A program made the translations under genes and the position numbers. A stretch of 64,000 nucleotides of DNA from an uncultured Paracoccaceae bacterium (GTDB lineage: Bacteria; Pseudomonadota; Alphaproteobacteria; Rhodobacterales; Rhodobacteraceae): NCBI GenBank assembly GCA_947499725.1, contig CANMPK010000001.1, positions 186,001 to 250,000 on the forward strand, written 5' to 3'. A model generated the notes under the pieces. That model was given only the letters and a program-made list of their open reading frames with translations. It was not told where the DNA came from and ran no database searches. Below are positions 1,695 to 8,683 of this stretch, in pieces; the stretch's first letter is position 1, and the number at the start of each line of letters is the position of its first letter.

Positions 1695-1764
1695 GCCAGA
1701 CCGCTGCGTTTCGCGGCGAAACCTGTGTGCTATTGGGACGATGCCTTAACATTTAGGTAATGTA

Positions 1765-1800
1765 GCAATTCGCGCTTTTCAGGCGCTGAAATGTACAATT
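1765..1800 (+). repeat. 36-bp dispersed imperfect palindrome, copy A
   Basis: The unit begins GCAATTCGCG and ends TGAAATGTACAATT. Its core is the dyad TTTCAG-N3-CTGAAA. Near-identical 36-base copies occur at 63941 (same strand) and 41369 (opposite strand). This copy lies between the end of ruvB and the mer cluster. It may be a MITE or a relic of an insertion-sequence end; no transposase is attached. Confidence 0.75.
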
Positions 1801-1918
1801 CCATATTTGGGCTTTTGCTTTGCATAATTGCTGAGGTGAATCCCGTTGGCGGGTGCTTTTGCAGCGAGTGTCGGCTCTGAGACCTACGTGACCGATGCTG
1901 CGATGTGTCAAAAGTCCG

Positions 1919-2143
1919 CTATTTGCAGCACGACTTGCCTTCTTGGATAGGTGGACACGGCACTGTTGCGTAGGAACAGTACACGCAACAGTCGCCTTCA
2001 AGCGGTTTCAAAACTGTTTGGCAGGACTTGCATTCATAGAACCACTGGCAGGCGTCAGTGGGCATGGTTTCCGTTTCGACATGCCCGCAAGATGGACAGG
2101 TCAGCGTGGAATCCAAGACTACTTTTGTTGCTTCTGTCGCCAT
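1919..2143 (-). CDS. Cys-rich GDCCVxCSY family protein of the mer cluster
   Basis: A 74-residue protein with 11 cysteines. A CPSC and a CKSC pair form a zinc-ribbon-like first half, followed by the signature GDCCVYCSYATVPCPPIQ and a terminal SCCK. Small proteins with this GDCC(V/x)CSY signature are found beside mer genes, and a role in binding Hg(II) or another soft metal is inferred from the thiols and the neighbours. The ATG at 2143 was chosen because it gives a compact protein that overlaps the merF stop by 25 bases, consistent with coupled translation. The longer ORF upstream is merF read in another frame. Confidence 0.8.
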   Translation of the reverse strand: MATEATKVVLDSTLTCPSCGHVETETMPTDACQWFYECKSCQTVLKPLEGDCCVYCSYATVPCPPIQEGKSCCK

Positions 2144-2328
2144 AGCGCGTACCCCGTCAGTATGAGAAAACCTGCCAAGATCGGCAGCAAAACAGCATCG
2201 TTGTAGAGAACGCCAAGCAGGCCAGTCAGACCAAGTGCTGTGAGCACAATCGGCAACAGCGGCGTGAAGCAGCAAAGGATTGCGAGGATCGTTCCGCTCA
2301 CTCCAAGTGCCAATAGTTTGTTTTTCAT
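2119..2328 (-). CDS. merF: Mercury transport protein MerF
   Basis: A 69-residue inner-membrane protein with two membrane segments (about 6-26 and 35-60). The first ends in the vicinal pair CC followed by FTPLLP, the Hg(II)-accepting motif of MerF, which brings mercuric ion into the cytoplasm. The start ATG overlaps the merT stop (ATGA), which fixes it. The ORF track begins further upstream, inside merT. It is slightly shorter than plasmid MerF (about 80 residues). In known operons such uptake feeds MerA, which is not present here. Confidence 0.88.
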   Translation of the reverse strand: MKNKLLALGVSGTILAILCCFTPLLPIVLTALGLTGLLGVLYNDAVLLPILAGFLILTGYALWRQKQQK

Positions 2329-2711
2329 TGGGTCGATCTCCAGAAATCCCACATGAACCGTTGTGCCGAGGCTTCCCAATATGGCGATGACAGCGCAACC
2401 AAGAAGGCAATGGTGGCGAGGGATGTCCACACGACAGCGGATCGCTTACGCCTTGTGCATGTTCTGGGCCATATCAACCGATACCAAGCCCAGATGAGCG
2501 CTACGGCGACTGCGACTAGGATGAAACCCCGATACGCAATGAAAGGTCCGAGCATTGTAAGCCAAGCGCCTCCGAGGCCGATGATGGACAGCCCGATTGG
2601 CAACACACAGCATGAGGCTGACAACAATGCCAGAAGTGCCGCGATTGGCATGACCATCCGCGCAGCTATGCCAGATTCAGTCGCTGTTTGTTGATTTGCG
2701 TTCATGTCCAT
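2325..2711 (-). CDS. merT: Mercuric ion transporter MerT
   Basis: A 128-residue protein with three predicted membrane helices. The first carries the CC pair (LLSASCCVLPIGLS) followed by GLGGAWL, typical of MerT. The cytoplasmic loop has a single Cys (RTCTRRK), whereas classical MerT has two. No MerP-like C-terminal domain is fused and no separate merP is present. ATG codons at 2711 and 2705 are both possible starts. Both lie at or next to the predicted transcription start of the MerR-type promoter, so the message may be leaderless. It heads the merT-merF-GDCC operon. Confidence 0.85.
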   Translation of the reverse strand: MDMNANQQTATESGIAARMVMPIAALLALLSASCCVLPIGLSIIGLGGAWLTMLGPFIAYRGFILVAVAVALIWAWYRLIWPRTCTRRKRSAVVWTSLATIAFLVALSSPYWEASAQRFMWDFWRSTQ

Positions 2712-2726
2712 ACTGCGGTTTTAATT

Positions 2727-2743
2727 CCTGTAGTGGCTACAGG
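2727..2743. promoter_or_regulatory. MerR operator between merR and merT
   Basis: A perfect 7-3-7 dyad, CCTGTAG-TGG-CTACAGG. Read toward merT it lies between a -35-like TTGCTC and a -10-like TAAAAC separated by about 19 bases. That over-long spacing is diagnostic of promoters that MerR proteins untwist. The -10 ends about 7 bases before the first merT ATG. The dyad also lies just 10 bases upstream of merR, so autoregulation is expected. Confidence 0.8.
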
Positions 2744-2753
2744 AGCAAGTAAA

Positions 2754-3179
2754 ATGTTTACCATCGGCAAGGCATCAGAACAAAGCGGTGTGAACATCGA
2801 AACGATACGATACTATGAGCGCGAAGGCATTGTTCCTCGGCCGGGCCGGTCGGCGGGAGGGCGCAGGATATATTCACCCGATGAAATTGCGAAATTGAGG
2901 TTCGTTCGGCGATGTCGAGACTTGGGGTTCCCGATCTCAATCATCCAGACCTTCCTGTCCCTGACTGAACAAGATGATCGAAGTTGCGGCGAGGTGAAGA
3001 CGTTGGCGGAAAATCATTTAGATGAAATCAACGCAAAGATCGAAAACCTGAAATGCCTCCGCGAAGCACTTCTGAGCCTGTCTTCGAATTGTGACGACGG
3101 AACTGCGGCCTGTCCGATGCTGGACTCTCTCATGAAAGATGGCTTTGGCGAAGACAGGTCTGAGCAAAGCAGACATTGA
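2754..3179 (+). CDS. merR: Hg(II)-responsive transcriptional regulator MerR
   Basis: A 141-residue MerR-family dimeric regulator. The N-terminal winged HTH begins MFTIGKASEQSGVNIETIRYYE. A long dimerisation helix follows, and all three mercury-ligand cysteines of true MerR are present at C78 (DRSC), C113 (SNC) and C120 (AAC). This supports Hg(II) specificity rather than ZntR or CueR type sensing. The ATG at 2754 follows AGGAG; the longer ORF-track start runs through the operator. It is divergent from merT-merF-GDCC and should repress and activate that promoter. Confidence 0.93.
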   Translation: MFTIGKASEQSGVNIETIRYYEREGIVPRPGRSAGGRRIYSPDEIAKLRFVRRCRDLGFPISIIQTFLSLTEQDDRSCGEVKTLAENHLDEINAKIENLKCLREALLSLSSNCDDGTAACPMLDSLMKDGFGEDRSEQSRH

Positions 3180-3278
3180 GTGGCCTTGTGTGAACGACAG
3201 TTTTGTCCGCATTGTTGACATCCGCCGCGTCTCCGCCTCTGCTGACGACGATAGCGAACAATTGCCAAGGGTAGGGAC

Positions 3279-3659
3279 GTGGTGAAACCGGTTGGGACAG
3301 TCTGGGGCGTCAGCCTCTTGGCTTTTGCTTTATTTTGGGTCGTGGCTGTCGGTCTTGTTGATCTGACGACCCTTTTGTTGGGCAAGCCTTGGCGTGGCGT
3401 AAGTTATGGTATTGGCGTTTATTACCTGAGTATTTGCTTGGCGATGATTGGTGGTTTGGCGCTGTTGGTGTCTGGTTTTATGTCTGGACGGGTCGGGTCG
3501 CGATGGGCTTTGGGGCTGGGGGGGCTTGCGATTGGATTTGCGGTGTTCACCTTCTTGGGCCAGCCCAGTGTTTTGGTGCGTGGCGTGCTTAGCCTTGTGC
3601 TGAGTGGTCTTTTGTGGGGCGCTATGATTTTGCAGCGGCGGGTGTTGGGGCGGCGGTAG
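3279..3659 (+). CDS. Small hypothetical membrane protein
   Basis: A 126-residue protein with four predicted hydrophobic segments (about 8-28, 45-66, 75-95, 100-120) and a basic C-terminus (QRRVLGRR). No family was recognised. It starts at one of two consecutive GTG codons after AAGGGTAGGGA, and the base composition is T/G-rich on the coding strand as expected for a membrane protein. It lies alone between merR and a terminator shared with the convergent gene downstream. Confidence 0.6.
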   Translation: MVKPVGTVWGVSLLAFALFWVVAVGLVDLTTLLLGKPWRGVSYGIGVYYLSICLAMIGGLALLVSGFMSGRVGSRWALGLGGLAIGFAVFTFLGQPSVLVRGVLSLVLSGLLWGAMILQRRVLGRR

Positions 3660-3685
3660 ATCATTGCACGCGAGGCCCAAAAGAA

Positions 3686-3716
3686 ATGGCCCCCGAGACG
3701 GTGTCTCGAGGGCCAT
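3686..3716. terminator. Bidirectional terminator hairpin
   Basis: A long stem (about 14 bp, ATGGCCC...GGGCCAT with CGAGAC/GTCTCG) with loop GGT, followed by TGATTTTT on the plus strand. An A-rich run (AAAAGAA) precedes it and would give U residues on the minus strand. It lies between the convergent genes ending at 3659 and 3743. Confidence 0.8.
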
Positions 3717-3742
3717 GATTTTTCAGAGTGCTTCGCGGCGTT

Positions 3743-4366
3743 TTAGTAAACGTCGCCCTTGTCGACCTTTTGGGAGAAAGCGGTTTCGCCGCCTTCGGCC
3801 AGAAGTTTTGCTTGCGCAACCCATTCATCACGTGTGACGCGGCCGTTGAAGCCTTCGAGGTTGGCATCCACCCAAGCCACTTCGGATTCTGTCCATTTGG
3901 CGATCTGATCAAAGTGCCAGAAGCCCAAGGAGTTGCAGAGCTTCTCCATTTTCGGGCCGATGCCTTTGATGCGCTTTAGATCGTCTGCAGCGCCACCACG
4001 TGGGCCTGTCAGGGTTTCAGGTTTCACACCTTCGTCCTTGCCCTCGACAACACCGTCACCGTCGTAATCGACGCCGGTGACTGTGGTGTCTTCGACTGCT
4101 TCTGCGGCTTCAACTGCAGCAGGCGCTGCGGCTGCGGCAGAGGCTGCGGCCAGTTGGGCGCGTAGGTCTGCGAGGTTGGCGTCTTTTTCCGCGTGTTTGG
4201 CGCGGCAGGCGTCTAGGTCGGCACGCAGGGTGTCGGCCTCTGATGTGTCAATATTCACTTCGGAGCGACGGCCCCAGATGATCCAACCAGCCAGAAGGCC
4301 AATGAGTGCGGCCAGAGCCAGAAGGACCCAGATTTCGGTCAGCAAAAATCCCCAATCACGAAACAT
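3743..4366 (-). CDS. Membrane-anchored helix-hairpin-helix protein with EF-hand-like loop
   Basis: A 207-residue protein. One N-terminal membrane segment (about 10-30) is followed by a coiled coil rich in Ala, Asp and Leu (about 40-95), then a Ca-binding-like loop DYDGDGVVEGKDE (about 100-112). A C-terminal helix-hairpin-helix domain follows (LKRIKGIGPKMEKLCNSLG then FDQIAKW). The latter resembles the domain fused to some NADH dehydrogenase subunit E proteins and to FEN1-like hypothetical proteins of this group. Function unknown. It starts 2 bases after the stop of the upstream OmpA gene, so it belongs to that operon. Confidence 0.75.
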   Translation of the reverse strand: MFRDWGFLLTEIWVLLALAALIGLLAGWIIWGRRSEVNIDTSEADTLRADLDACRAKHAEKDANLADLRAQLAAASAAAAAPAAVEAAEAVEDTTVTGVDYDGDGVVEGKDEGVKPETLTGPRGGAADDLKRIKGIGPKMEKLCNSLGFWHFDQIAKWTESEVAWVDANLEGFNGRVTRDEWVAQAKLLAEGGETAFSQKVDKGDVY

Positions 4367-4368
4367 CT

Positions 4369-5889
4369 TTATTCTCCTGCGCTCGTGTTAACTTCAGTGT
4401 CTTGTGTCGCAGCCGGTGTAACGGGCTCGGCTGCGGCTGGCTCAAACCATGTGATGGCTGTGCGGCGGTTGGCGGCGCGGCCTTCTTCGGTTTCGTTGTC
4501 TGCGATTGGCTGGGTTTCCCCGTAGCCAACGGCTGTGATGCCAGCCTCTGGCACACCGCGCGCGATGAGCGCTGTGCGGACCGCTTCTGCGCGGGATTGC
4601 GACAGTTGCTGGTTCAGATCGTCGCCGCCTTGGCTGTCTGTGTGGCCGCCGATTTCGACGGTGAGGTCTGTCTCGTCCACACATTGGCCGATGATCGCGG
4701 CCACCGCGTTGACGGTGCGGATGGATTGCGGATCAAGCTGGGCAGAGCCGGTGACGAAATTCACACGATCTTTTTGCAGCGCTTCGTTTGAATAGCTGGC
4801 GCATGTATCAAGATCAGAGGTGAAATCCATGACAGGAAGCCAGAAGCCGCTGTTGAAGGCTTCAAGGCGGCCTGTGGCTTGGTTTGTGCGCTCTGTGCCG
4901 TCTGCTGGCAGGCTCGCTGCGTCAGAGACAGAGACATTCGCGCCGTCGCCCAATGCGCTGGACAGTCCGGATTGAAGCAGGGCTGCATCGACGCCCGGTG
5001 CGGCTTCGGCTGTGACCGTGACCACATCGTCATTGCTGTTGAGCGATAGGGTTTCGACTTCTGGCAACCATGCGCTGATGGCGCTGAGTTGCTGCTTTGT
5101 CTTTGGGCTTTCGCCAAGCAAGCCTTGGGCTGCATCGCCAGAGACCGTATCCAGTTTCAGAGCGGCGGCAATCGCTGCGTTGTCCAAATCTGTGGGCAGT
5201 TTCCCTGTGACGGTTGCGCCGGAGCCTGCGTTATAGACCACATCGAAGTTCGGCGGTGTGCCGTCGTCCATAAGATCCAGTTCGAAGGCTGCTTCGTATC
5301 CTTCCGGCAGATTGGCCAGCGCGGCTTGCGCGGCCTCTGCTTCGGCTGGAGAGAAGGCTCTGCCTGTCAGGGTGATTGTGCGATCTGACACGGCCAATGC
5401 GCCGCTTTCCAGAACAGACAGGCTGTCTAGGCCTTGGCCGACAACATCGGTCCAACCGGTGTCTGGCGCGCCAGCTTTAAGCTCTAGCGCATTGGCATCT
5501 GCGCCAATACGGGTTGCCAGCGCTTGGCGGTCTGCTTCTGTTGGGACCATGCCCGCATAGCGCATACCATCTGCATCTTTTTCAGCGTTCAACACAAACG
5601 GGCTGGCGGTTTCCAGCACGGTAAGGTCATCGCGCACCACGCGGCGTCCGTGGACGTCGTTCATTGCGGCGATGATTTGATCGCGTTCTTCTTCCCCATT
5701 GGCAACGCCTGACACTGTGATGTCGCGTCCCAAAACATTTGTGCTGATCGGGTGCACGGTTCCGCTTGCAGCGGCCAGAGCACCGGCAGACACACTAGAC
5801 TGCATCGTCTCAGCATTATTGGAAGAGCCGTACCATCCCAATAGTCCTGTTCCGACGACAAGTACTGTCCCACCTAACAGTTTTCGCAC
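4369..5889 (-). CDS. OmpA-family cell-envelope protein with repeated N-terminal domains
   Basis: A 506-residue exported protein. It has an N-terminal membrane/signal segment (KLLGGTVLVVGTGLLGWYG), then several tandem alpha/beta segments resembling BON repeats (patterns such as TVSGVANGEEERDQI and TLTGRAFSPAEAEAAQ). A C-terminal OmpA peptidoglycan-binding domain lies at about 375-485, with the motif GGHTDSQGGDDLNQQLSQSRA and VGYGETQPIADN. The likely role is peptidoglycan anchoring of the envelope. It is the first gene of an operon with the HhH protein. Assignment of the BON repeats is by pattern only. Confidence 0.85.
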   Translation of the reverse strand: MRKLLGGTVLVVGTGLLGWYGSSNNAETMQSSVSAGALAAASGTVHPISTNVLGRDITVSGVANGEEERDQIIAAMNDVHGRRVVRDDLTVLETASPFVLNAEKDADGMRYAGMVPTEADRQALATRIGADANALELKAGAPDTGWTDVVGQGLDSLSVLESGALAVSDRTITLTGRAFSPAEAEAAQAALANLPEGYEAAFELDLMDDGTPPNFDVVYNAGSGATVTGKLPTDLDNAAIAAALKLDTVSGDAAQGLLGESPKTKQQLSAISAWLPEVETLSLNSNDDVVTVTAEAAPGVDAALLQSGLSSALGDGANVSVSDAASLPADGTERTNQATGRLEAFNSGFWLPVMDFTSDLDTCASYSNEALQKDRVNFVTGSAQLDPQSIRTVNAVAAIIGQCVDETDLTVEIGGHTDSQGGDDLNQQLSQSRAEAVRTALIARGVPEAGITAVGYGETQPIADNETEEGRAANRRTAITWFEPAAAEPVTPAATQDTEVNTSAGE

Positions 5890-6522
<633 letters not shown>

Positions 6523-6547
6523 GGGCCAAAGCGGCCCTCAAGCTGGT

Positions 6548-6997
6548 TTATTTAGCGCCCACGCAATCGACTTCGACCTTTGCGCCAAAAGCGAGATCTG
6601 TTCCGCCAAGGGCGGCACGCGCTGGGAACTTCCCTGGTTCAAAGAACTCTGAATAGACCCCATTGAAGGCACCCCATTCGGAAATGTCATGCATGAAGAC
6701 CGTGCATTTCACGAGGTTCTCCATGCTATAGCCATTGCTGGTGAGCATCGTTTGAATGTTTTCCATGGTTTGGCGGCTTTCGGCTTCGATGCCGCCTTCG
6801 ACCAGTTCGAGCGTCAGGGGTTTGATGCCGATCATTCCGGACAGATAAAGGGTGTCTCCGGCCACGACAATTTCGCTGAAGGGCAAGTTGCCTGCGGGAA
6901 GTACTGTGCCGGAATTCAGACGTTCGATGCTTGTTTCTGCCGTGGCGATTTGGGCTGTCAGGATCGTGGCGGCGGTGAATAGCGACAAGGATTTCAA
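6548..6997 (-). CDS. RidA/YjgF-family protein with signal peptide
   Basis: A 149-residue protein. Residues 1-20 are a clear Sec signal (MKSLSLFTAATILTAQIATA) ahead of a RidA-type trimeric fold. RidA enzymes hydrolyse reactive enamines/imines in the cytosol, but this copy should be periplasmic. At the position of the conserved substrate-binding Arg the segment reads KFPARAALGGTDLAFGAKVEVDC, which keeps an Arg (in PARAA), so imine chemistry is possible but unproven. It is a single gene convergent with the VOC gene. Confidence 0.85.
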   Translation of the reverse strand: MKSLSLFTAATILTAQIATAETSIERLNSGTVLPAGNLPFSEIVVAGDTLYLSGMIGIKPLTLELVEGGIEAESRQTMENIQTMLTSNGYSMENLVKCTVFMHDISEWGAFNGVYSEFFEPGKFPARAALGGTDLAFGAKVEVDCVGAK

Positions 6998-7173
6998 AAT
7001 TTTGACCTCTCTCAGATAAGTTTCGTCTGGAGATGAGAGTGAGATCTTCGTTTTCTTACCACAAGGTCAAAGCGTGCTTAGCGCTGTGTTTTGGGAAGGT
7101 GATCGAAAGCTGTGTCGCTTTATTGAGCAAATGTAATGCGGTTGCGCGACTTCTATCATGCTGAATTAAGACG

Positions 7174-7638
7174 TTAAACTGGCAGTACTGTTGTGTCTTT
7201 GATGTCTTCCATCACAAAGCTGGCTGACACATCTGCGATGTCGATCTTGGCGATGAGACGTTGGTAGAAGGCATCATAGGCGGCCACGTCCGCCACGCGC
7301 ACGCGCAGCACGTAATCTAGATCCCCTGACATGCGCTGCGCGGTGAGGATTTCCGGCATTTGGCGGATCGCGCTGTGAAAGGCCTTGAGCCATTTGGCGC
7401 TGTGATCATTGGTGCGGATGAAGACAATCGCTTGCAGGCCAAGCCCCACGCGGGCTGGGTCGATCAGGGCAACGCGGCTTTGAATGATCCCTTCGGTCTC
7501 GAGCCGTTTGACGCGGCGCCAGCAGGCGTTGCGCGACAGGTTCACGCGGTCTGACAGCATATCAACGCTGAGGGAGGCGTCTTCTTGCAGAAGCTTTAGG
7601 AGGGCGCGGTCTATTTCGTCGATCAAATGCTGGGTCAT
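7174..7638 (-). CDS. Lrp/AsnC-family transcriptional regulator
   Basis: A 154-residue feast/famine regulator. The N-terminal HTH (DEIDRALLKLLQEDASLS through SRNACWRRVKRLETEGII) is joined to a C-terminal RAM ligand domain (QAIVFIRTN...MSGDLDYVLRVRVAD). The ligand is probably an amino acid. The ATG at 7638 was preferred over the GTG at 7647 because AGGA lies 10 bases before the ATG but would abut the GTG. It is divergent from the DUF6356 gene 100 bases away, a possible target. Confidence 0.9.
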   Translation of the reverse strand: MTQHLIDEIDRALLKLLQEDASLSVDMLSDRVNLSRNACWRRVKRLETEGIIQSRVALIDPARVGLGLQAIVFIRTNDHSAKWLKAFHSAIRQMPEILTAQRMSGDLDYVLRVRVADVAAYDAFYQRLIAKIDIADVSASFVMEDIKDTTVLPV

Positions 7639-7737
7639 TGGGATCACGTCCTAACTGTGCCGTCTGATGCGGTGTATTTTGGGATAATTTGGCTGATATT
7701 TTGGTGTAATTTTACTGCAAATGCAAGGAGGCTTGAG

Positions 7738-7950
7738 ATGAATGCTTTGTTGAAACGTGTTTTTGTGGAACATCCGCACAGTGTGGATGAGAGTTACATC
7801 CAGCACATGCGCTTTGCGATGGGCTTTGCGGGGCAGTTGTTTGTGGCGGGGGGGATGGCTTTGGTGCATGCGTTTATTCCTTGTCTGTTTGAGAAAACCG
7901 CCAGTGCGCGCATTCAGGCGATACATGCGCGGTTGCAGCATCGCGACTAA
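7738..7950 (+). CDS. DUF6356 family small membrane protein
   Basis: A 70-residue protein beginning MNALLKRVFVEHPHSVDESY, the signature of DUF6356. One hydrophobic segment follows (FAGQLFVAGGMALVHAFIPCLF), then a basic helix. Function unknown. The ATG follows a strong AAGGAGG at 8-base spacing, which decides this start over the longer ORF-track start lying in the Lrp upstream region. Confidence 0.85.
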   Translation: MNALLKRVFVEHPHSVDESYIQHMRFAMGFAGQLFVAGGMALVHAFIPCLFEKTASARIQAIHARLQHRD

Positions 7951-8017
7951 GGCGCGGCGCTTGCGCTTTTGGCGGCGAACGGGCATTTAGCGACAAAGTT
8001 TGGATAGGAACTGATCT

Positions 8018-8683
8018 ATGTCTGATGCGCCGCAGCCGCTGATCTCGCCGGAAGAGATTCAAAAGATGTTCACCCGTGCGGATGGCTCTTATGTGTTTGC
8101 CCGTTGGGGGCGCCCGATTGCGCCCGTGGCGTTTGGGGTGCAGGACGAGACGATTGCTGTGGTGAAAGGCGCGGTTGAGGCTGTGGTGACTTTGGCGGGC
8201 CATAAGGTGGCTGAGGTTGATCCGGAGCTTGGCTCGAACCTGATGTTCTTTTTCTTCCGCGAATGGGAAGAGCTGCTGGCGGTGCCAGATCTGGATCGCT
8301 TGATCCCAGATTTGCAACCTTTGGTGGGCCGTTTGGCGGGGGCGGATGCCAGCCAGTATCGCGCGTTCCGTTTTGATGATGACGGGGCCATTCAGGCGGC
8401 CTTTGTGTTTATCCGCATGAAGGGCGCGATGGCGGATGTGCCGGCTGAGACCTTGGCGTTGACCCAAGCGGCGCAGGTGATTGTGCTGTGGGGCGAAGGG
8501 GCCTTTGCTGATAAATCGCCGCTTGCTGTGATGCCGGAAACCGGCGCGACAATCCTAAGGCCGGATGTGGCTGGGGTGATCGCGGCGGCCTATGATCGGA
8601 TGATGCCAGTGGCGGCAGAGGATGCCAGCCATGCGCTGCGCTTGTTTGCACGGTTGCAGGGGCCTGTGGGCAATCAGGCTTAG
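8018..8683 (+). CDS. Conserved hypothetical protein (Rhodobacteraceae type)
   Basis: A 221-residue soluble protein with no signal peptide or membrane segment. It begins MSDAPQPLISPEEIQKMFTRADGSYVFARW and contains a FFFREWEEL segment and repeated Asp/Ala-rich stretches. Function not recognised. It has an AGGAA ribosome-binding site and normal codon use. It lies just upstream of the ybgC-tol operon but is separated from it by 138 bases holding an inverted repeat, so it is probably its own transcript. Confidence 0.8.
   Translation: MSDAPQPLISPEEIQKMFTRADGSYVFARWGRPIAPVAFGVQDETIAVVKGAVEAVVTLAGHKVAEVDPELGSNLMFFFFREWEELLAVPDLDRLIPDLQPLVGRLAGADASQYRAFRFDDDGAIQAAFVFIRMKGAMADVPAETLALTQAAQVIVLWGEGAFADKSPLAVMPETGATILRPDVAGVIAAAYDRMMPVAAEDASHALRLFARLQGPVGNQA

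Follow-up and report, generated by a model that had tools for sequence, protein, structure and literature searches.

In the standard model, mercury importers make sense only together with the mercuric reductase MerA. The closest described system without the reductase is the merR-merT-merP module of Tn5563 on plasmid pRA2 (Yeo et al. 1998, as cited in PMC4785139). Its mer locus has been called defective (PMC4785139) and the transposon a deletion derivative of Tn5044 (PMC4447125). A Tn5563a module cut the mercury MIC by a factor of at least 2 in six strains; in two others, both Pseudomonas, the MIC rose, which the authors tentatively put down to a merA on the chromosome (PMC4447125). These values support real import and show that such a module is something other than a simple resistance determinant. 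They also lend published support to the premise from which the original prediction started, that uptake without reduction sensitises cells.

The prototype Tn5563 (pRA2) carries merR-merT-merP-GDCCVxC and no merA; its fourth gene is not mentioned in the available parts of the Tn5563 literature. The family of that gene product is listed as the hypothetical selenoprotein family GOS_B, without function (PMC13188914). No use of the name GDCCVxC was found in the literature searched, and no function is known for the family. A working import-and-store analogue does exist in engineered strains that combine MerT/P with metallothionein (PMC6215804). Here we describe a four-gene cassette with a GDCCVxC gene in a 64,000-nucleotide stretch of DNA from an uncultured marine Paracoccaceae bacterium (the window).

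Gene content and layout

The cassette occupies positions 1919-3179 of the window, with merR divergent from a minus-strand trio of merT, merF and the GDCCVxC gene. Its features are as follows.

2754-3179, plus strand: merR, MerR-family metal regulator, 141 aa from ATG; C78/C113/C120, C-to-C loop distance 7
2725-2744, no strand: operator dyad TTCCTGTAGTGGCTACAGGA, core CTGTAG-N3-CTACAG at 2728-2742, between merR and merT
2718-2748, minus strand: predicted MerR-type merT promoter; -35 TTGCTC (2748-2743), 19-bp spacer, -10 TAAAAC (2723-2718)
2325-2711, minus strand: divergent merT ("MerT-alt"), 128 aa; SCCVLP in TM1 and one further Cys only; PF02411
2119-2328, minus strand: merF, 69 aa; CC pair in the first TM helix, no C-terminal Cys pair; NF033565, PF11431
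1919-2143, minus strand: GDCCVxC-domain protein, 74 aa, 11 Cys; NF041374

All four genes named in the original prediction are therefore in place, including the Cys-rich GDCC-type protein with 11 Cys in 74 residues and a merR with three Hg-ligand cysteines. The latter, C78/C113/C120, align with the MerR mercury ligands, which are Cys82, Cys117 and Cys126 in Tn501 MerR (PMC5027573); the first two are 35 residues apart in both proteins, and the last two are 7 apart here versus 9 in Tn501. MerF and the GDCCVxC protein pass their models (NF033565, 66.5 bits, cut-off 50; NF041374, 106.5 bits, cut-off 40, full-length match). MerR scores 107.7 bits against the mercury equivalog TIGR02051 (cut-off 150.85) and nearly the same, 106.5 bits, against the CueR model, falling below both cut-offs. 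MerT passes PF02411 marginally (33.2 bits, gathering score 32.9) and stays below the NF010314 equivalog cut-off (33.7 bits against 150). The "MerR" and "MerT" of the cassette are thus divergent members of their families. The second, C-terminal CC of characterised MerF is missing here, as it is from other MerFs of the bacterial family. On the minus strand, merT and merF overlap by 4 bp and merF and the GDCCVxC gene by 25 bp, so the trio is almost certainly a single, translationally coupled transcript.

The operator core has one match in the 64-kb window against 0.01 expected, and the full dyad is unique in the genome except for one non-palindromic match with two mismatches. Upstream of the merA operons found in this bacterial family lies an identical or almost identical core. 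A long-spacer promoter is typical of MerR activation, and the cassette shares with reductive mer operons a predicted 19-bp-spaced promoter combined with a dyad and a MerR-type regulator. The merT ATG starts 6 nt past the predicted -10 (window 2709-2723), a spacing kept in close relatives, and the mRNA is for this reason probably leaderless or nearly leaderless. A sigma-70 promoter scan found nothing at merT because it takes spacers of 16-18 nt only; like the intrinsic-terminator scan, it performed no better than on shuffled sequence.

Absence of MerA and MerP from the genome

The host genome (3.15 Mb, 99.9% complete) has no gene over the TIGR02053 cut-off of 454 for MerA. The best match reaches 346 bits, and the top six are three lipoamide dehydrogenases, a glutathione reductase, the SthA transhydrogenase and one FAD oxidoreductase. 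HMA domains are confined to two large ORFs (721 and 828 aa), and MerP is therefore absent too. MerB gave no match either, an absence that is weakly shown since the control genomes also gave none. The lack of merA and merP, originally noticed for the neighbourhood, thus extends to the whole genome. The original prediction had also allowed that merA might lie elsewhere under the same operator, making this an ordinary split operon. That reading is rejected for this genome, which is without merA or merP and has no good second copy of the dyad.

Recurrence of the gene set without merA

The original prediction proposed comparing neighbourhoods within the bacterial family, and this comparison reveals that the absence of merA is the rule for the gene set. 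Of 199 family genomes, 33 encode GDCCVxC and 27 encode MerA; the two coincide in only two genomes, each time on separate contigs. This overlap does not fall significantly short of the chance expectation (Fisher p = 0.26). The idea that GDCCVxC avoids merA-bearing genomes was consequently dropped, and only non-adjacency holds.

A scan of GTDB genomes yielded at least 80 GDCCVxC loci, for which up to 6 kb was fetched on each side and 79 genes were parsed. The hosts of the listed loci are alpha-, beta- and gammaproteobacteria, Bacteroidota and one actinomycete (Nocardioides). By profile or motif, a Mer importer precedes GDCCVxC on the same strand in 55 of the 79 listed genes; at least two more follow a MerC-type importer found by hand, for a total of at least 57. 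These partners are MerT, MerF, MerC, MerTP or a new 107-aa MerT-like type that scores only 19.8 bits against PF02411. With a MerA profile built from 28 MerAs, no true MerA was found within reach among the listed GTDB loci, the loci of the bacterial family or the annotated plasmid loci. Four weaker flavoprotein matches were found near GDCCVxC loci, and all lack the C-terminal Cys pair of MerA. Agrobacterium tumefaciens and Sulfitobacter plasmids carry the exact merR-merT-merF-GDCCVxC set, as do several Rhodobacterales genomes. The cassette is thus an instance of a merA-less module that recurs. As the pairing of an importer with the Cys-rich protein is found across many bacteria, it seems to work as an alternative and not to be a mercury-resistance operon that has broken down.

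We note that a same-strand MerR precedes the set at six loci from marine gammaproteobacteria (L153, L162, L165, L172, L205 and L213), and that a MerC-type protein is encoded between MerR and GDCCVxC at all four of them whose intervening gene was inspected (L153, L162, L205 and L213).

The regulator and the importer form a distinct branch. The window MerR belongs to a 33-member clade (support 100/99) drawn entirely from merA-less sets. The C-to-C loop distance is 7 in 13 of 13 sets with MerT-alt and MerF and in 15 of 16 sets with the 107-aa importer, versus 8 in all 13 merA-linked MerRs of the bacterial family. Similarly, the second MerT Cys pair is found in none of 14 MerT-alt proteins versus 19 of 19 merA-linked MerTs of the family. 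Loss of this pair through loss of the MerA acceptor was considered and discarded: 26 of 28 canonical MerTs beside GDCCVxC without merA keep the pair (as do 17 of 17 MerTP fusions), and its absence is therefore a trait of the clade, not a mark of merA-lessness.

Mobility and selection

The cassette is found in three of nine species of the genus, at different sites. Identity to one congener is 77% at the DNA level over window 1891-3151; it is limited to the four genes, which are located elsewhere in that genome. Judged from such comparisons, the cassette is horizontally mobile, moving as a unit of ~1.26 kb. In four of five congeners checked (L234-L237), ruvB is followed within a few hundred bases by the gene that starts at window position 8018. 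The two are separated by ~6.3 kb in the window (1695-8017), and another congener (L233) has ~5 kb of other DNA at this place. Different DNA in the place filled by 6.3 kb in the window suggests that this site is an insertion hot spot. By inspection, no transposase-like gene was noticed within 9 kb of the cassette.

All four genes are under purifying selection, which is strongest on GDCCVxC. Against relatives, dN/dS is 0.01-0.06 for GDCCVxC, 0.04-0.09 for merR, 0.04-0.15 for merF and 0.05-0.24 for merT. Values are mostly below 0.2, leaving aside one Roseobacter assembly (L142) in which merT is broken (a 52-aa ORF) and merF and GDCCVxC are intact. These ratios indicate that the cassette is not decaying and, together with the single operator core, that the gene set is not a product of chance.

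The GDCCVxC protein and its other contexts

The GDCCVxC protein combines a zinc-ribbon-like CPxC...CxxC, the GDCCVxC motif and a C-terminal CC; no signal peptide is evident in its sequence. It has Cys in place of the Sec of the NF041374/GOS_B selenoprotein family. Across 65 homologues, C16, C19, C32, C38, C41, C52, C53 and C56 are invariant, and C63, C72 and C73 nearly so. The AlphaFold model (pLDDT 77, pTM 0.56) has no Foldseek match at E <= 0.001; weak matches include the zinc-ribbon proteins RbpA and LysW. At the level of sequence profiles, the protein touches the TFIIS-type zinc ribbon of an RNA polymerase II subunit (E = 0.0036) and the PaaD zinc ribbon (E = 0.0077, below the Pfam cut-off).

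In 8 of 17 loci of the bacterial family that lack an importer, GDCCVxC is adjoined by msrP and/or msrQ. It lies directly after msrP, and before msrQ where the contig allows, at L102, L116, L119, L120, L121, L123, L124 and L126. At L110 and L112, and at L175 from the GTDB scan, merF and GDCCVxC together follow msrP, and a curated model confirms msrQ downstream of msrP-merF-GDCCVxC in L112 (407-2361). No report of GDCCVxC in methionine sulfoxide reductase operons was found in the literature searched. One further copy lies inside an ars operon. Given these contexts and the GOS_B listing, the role of GDCCVxC is wider than mercury.

Two other neighbourhoods deserve mention. At L108, GDCCVxC adjoins genes for a CobW/ZigA-type metallochaperone GTPase and an acetyltransferase-like protein. 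In two Flavobacteriia (L177:823-2388 and L194:4658-6222), a 448-aa glutathione-reductase-like flavoprotein is encoded directly before GDCCVxC, and after MerTP in L194. It is identical in both genera, and hence recently transferred.

Proposed mechanism and alternatives

We propose that the cassette is a horizontally mobile, merA-independent set for soft-metal import and capture, a reading to which we give an even chance. A MerR-type protein on the dyad would bind a thiophilic ion through its three cysteines and activate the 19-bp-spaced merT promoter. This step is very probable, given the layout, operator and spacing, with activation as its inferred part. By analogy with their families, MerT and MerF would then carry the ion over the inner membrane through the CC pairs of their first helices. 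The co-translated GDCCVxC protein would serve as the cytosolic acceptor in place of MerA, either buffering the ion or handing it on to cellular thiols or to export. The recurrent pairing, the cysteine content and the strongest constraint of the four genes point to this role, for which we judge the chances even or slightly better. The ion is probably Hg(II), in view of the mer operator, the three retained MerR ligands and partners drawn from mercury-importer families; a different soft ion is conceivable, given how divergent the regulator is.

Of the options in the original prediction other than a distant merA, sequestration by the Cys-rich protein is compatible with everything found and is our leading reading. 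The other, a different role for the set, remains alive on account of the divergent regulator and transporter and the msrPQ and ars contexts. Three points count against the proposal. GDCCVxC may not be protective by itself, because Tn5563a sensitised six strains and the gene is known from prototype Tn5563. The MerR is below the mercury-equivalog cut-off and has a shorter loop than merA-linked MerRs, and GDCCVxC also occurs in msrPQ operons without any importer.

A first alternative is that the cassette deals with a soft ion other than mercury, such as Cu(I), Ag, Cd, Zn or As(III), or with a thiol-oxidation stress, and that its mer names reflect homology only. We regard it as unlikely; the weight that it does receive comes mainly from the wider role of GDCCVxC. 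The nearly equal CueR and MerR scores, the loop of 7, the missing second Cys pair of MerT-alt, and GDCCVxC alone or with MerF inside msrPQ operons and once in an ars operon all favour it, as does the link between MsrP and copper stress in E. coli (PMC9302797). Against this, the three Hg-ligand cysteines are kept, the operator core is identical to that of merA operons and the importers come from several different mercury-transport families. Distinctly improbable is a split MerA, in which GDCCVxC would pass Hg(II) on for reduction by glutathione reductase or a related general flavoprotein disulfide reductase. The flavoprotein between MerTP and GDCCVxC in Leeuwenhoekiella and that just before GDCCVxC in Sinomicrobium would fit, as would those near the set in Brevundimonas and Methylobacterium, and the host genome encodes glutathione reductase and five other such flavoproteins. 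However, they amount to 4 of ~130 loci, two with identical proteins; none has the C-terminal Cys pair of MerA, and by our own estimate such genes are common enough to be chance neighbours.

An accessory uptake role, dependent on a merA encoded separately in some hosts, is very improbable. One congener (G199) does carry the cassette on contig C12 and a true MerA on C26, and the tolerance gained by two Pseudomonas strains agrees with such an arrangement, but a search of the host genome and seven others with the cassette found no MerA over the cut-off in the host or in six of the seven. Scarcely tenable, finally, is the idea that an ordinary mer operon lost merA and merP and that the cassette is what is left of it, in decay. 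The published descriptions of Tn5563 as defective and a deletion derivative, and the broken merT of one relative, would agree with decay. It is largely refuted by the strong purifying selection on all four genes, by a gene order that is the same in many genera and by a MerR clade with no merA-linked member. Moreover, no GDCCVxC gene was found adjacent to merA, so removing merA from a merA operon would not by itself yield this set.

The import-and-capture reading could tentatively be extended, although we doubt it more than we favour it. GDCCVxC would then act, independently of MerA, as the general cytosolic partner for every family of mercury importers and for msrPQ. The undescribed system so defined would couple the capture of soft metals to the repair of oxidation damage in the periplasm, and the Tn5563 locus would be an intact module of it, not a defective mer locus. 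The arrangement itself is conserved, selected and mobile, and breaks the rule that importers need MerA in several phyla; mercury specialists would not expect it to be the norm throughout a protein family. If the acceptor is GDCCVxC, an uncharacterised selenoprotein family gains a function, the reading of Tn5563 is revised (its GDCCVxC recurs on many sequenced plasmids, clinical ones included), and metagenomic counts of merT and merF do not measure mercury reduction.

Comparison with known systems

The cassette resembles Tn5563 in its divergent merR, its importer genes, GDCCVxC directly downstream, the absence of merA and its mobility. It differs in that Tn5563 has MerP, a canonical MerT with the second Cys pair and no MerF, and its MerR belongs to another clade with a loop distance of 9 versus 7 here; Tn5563-type modules are also carried on a Tn3-family transposon, and no transposase-like gene was noticed within 9 kb of the cassette. 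With the canonical merRT(P)(F)A operons of the same bacterial family it shares a divergent three-Cys merR, the operator core and the MerT and MerF importers. Unlike these reductive operons, it has GDCCVxC and lacks merA and merP; their MerR loop distance is 8 and their MerT has a C-x(3-5)-C pair that is absent here. The engineered MerT/P-metallothionein accumulators likewise couple import to a Cys-rich cytosolic store; they are man-made, and their metallothionein is unrelated to GDCCVxC.
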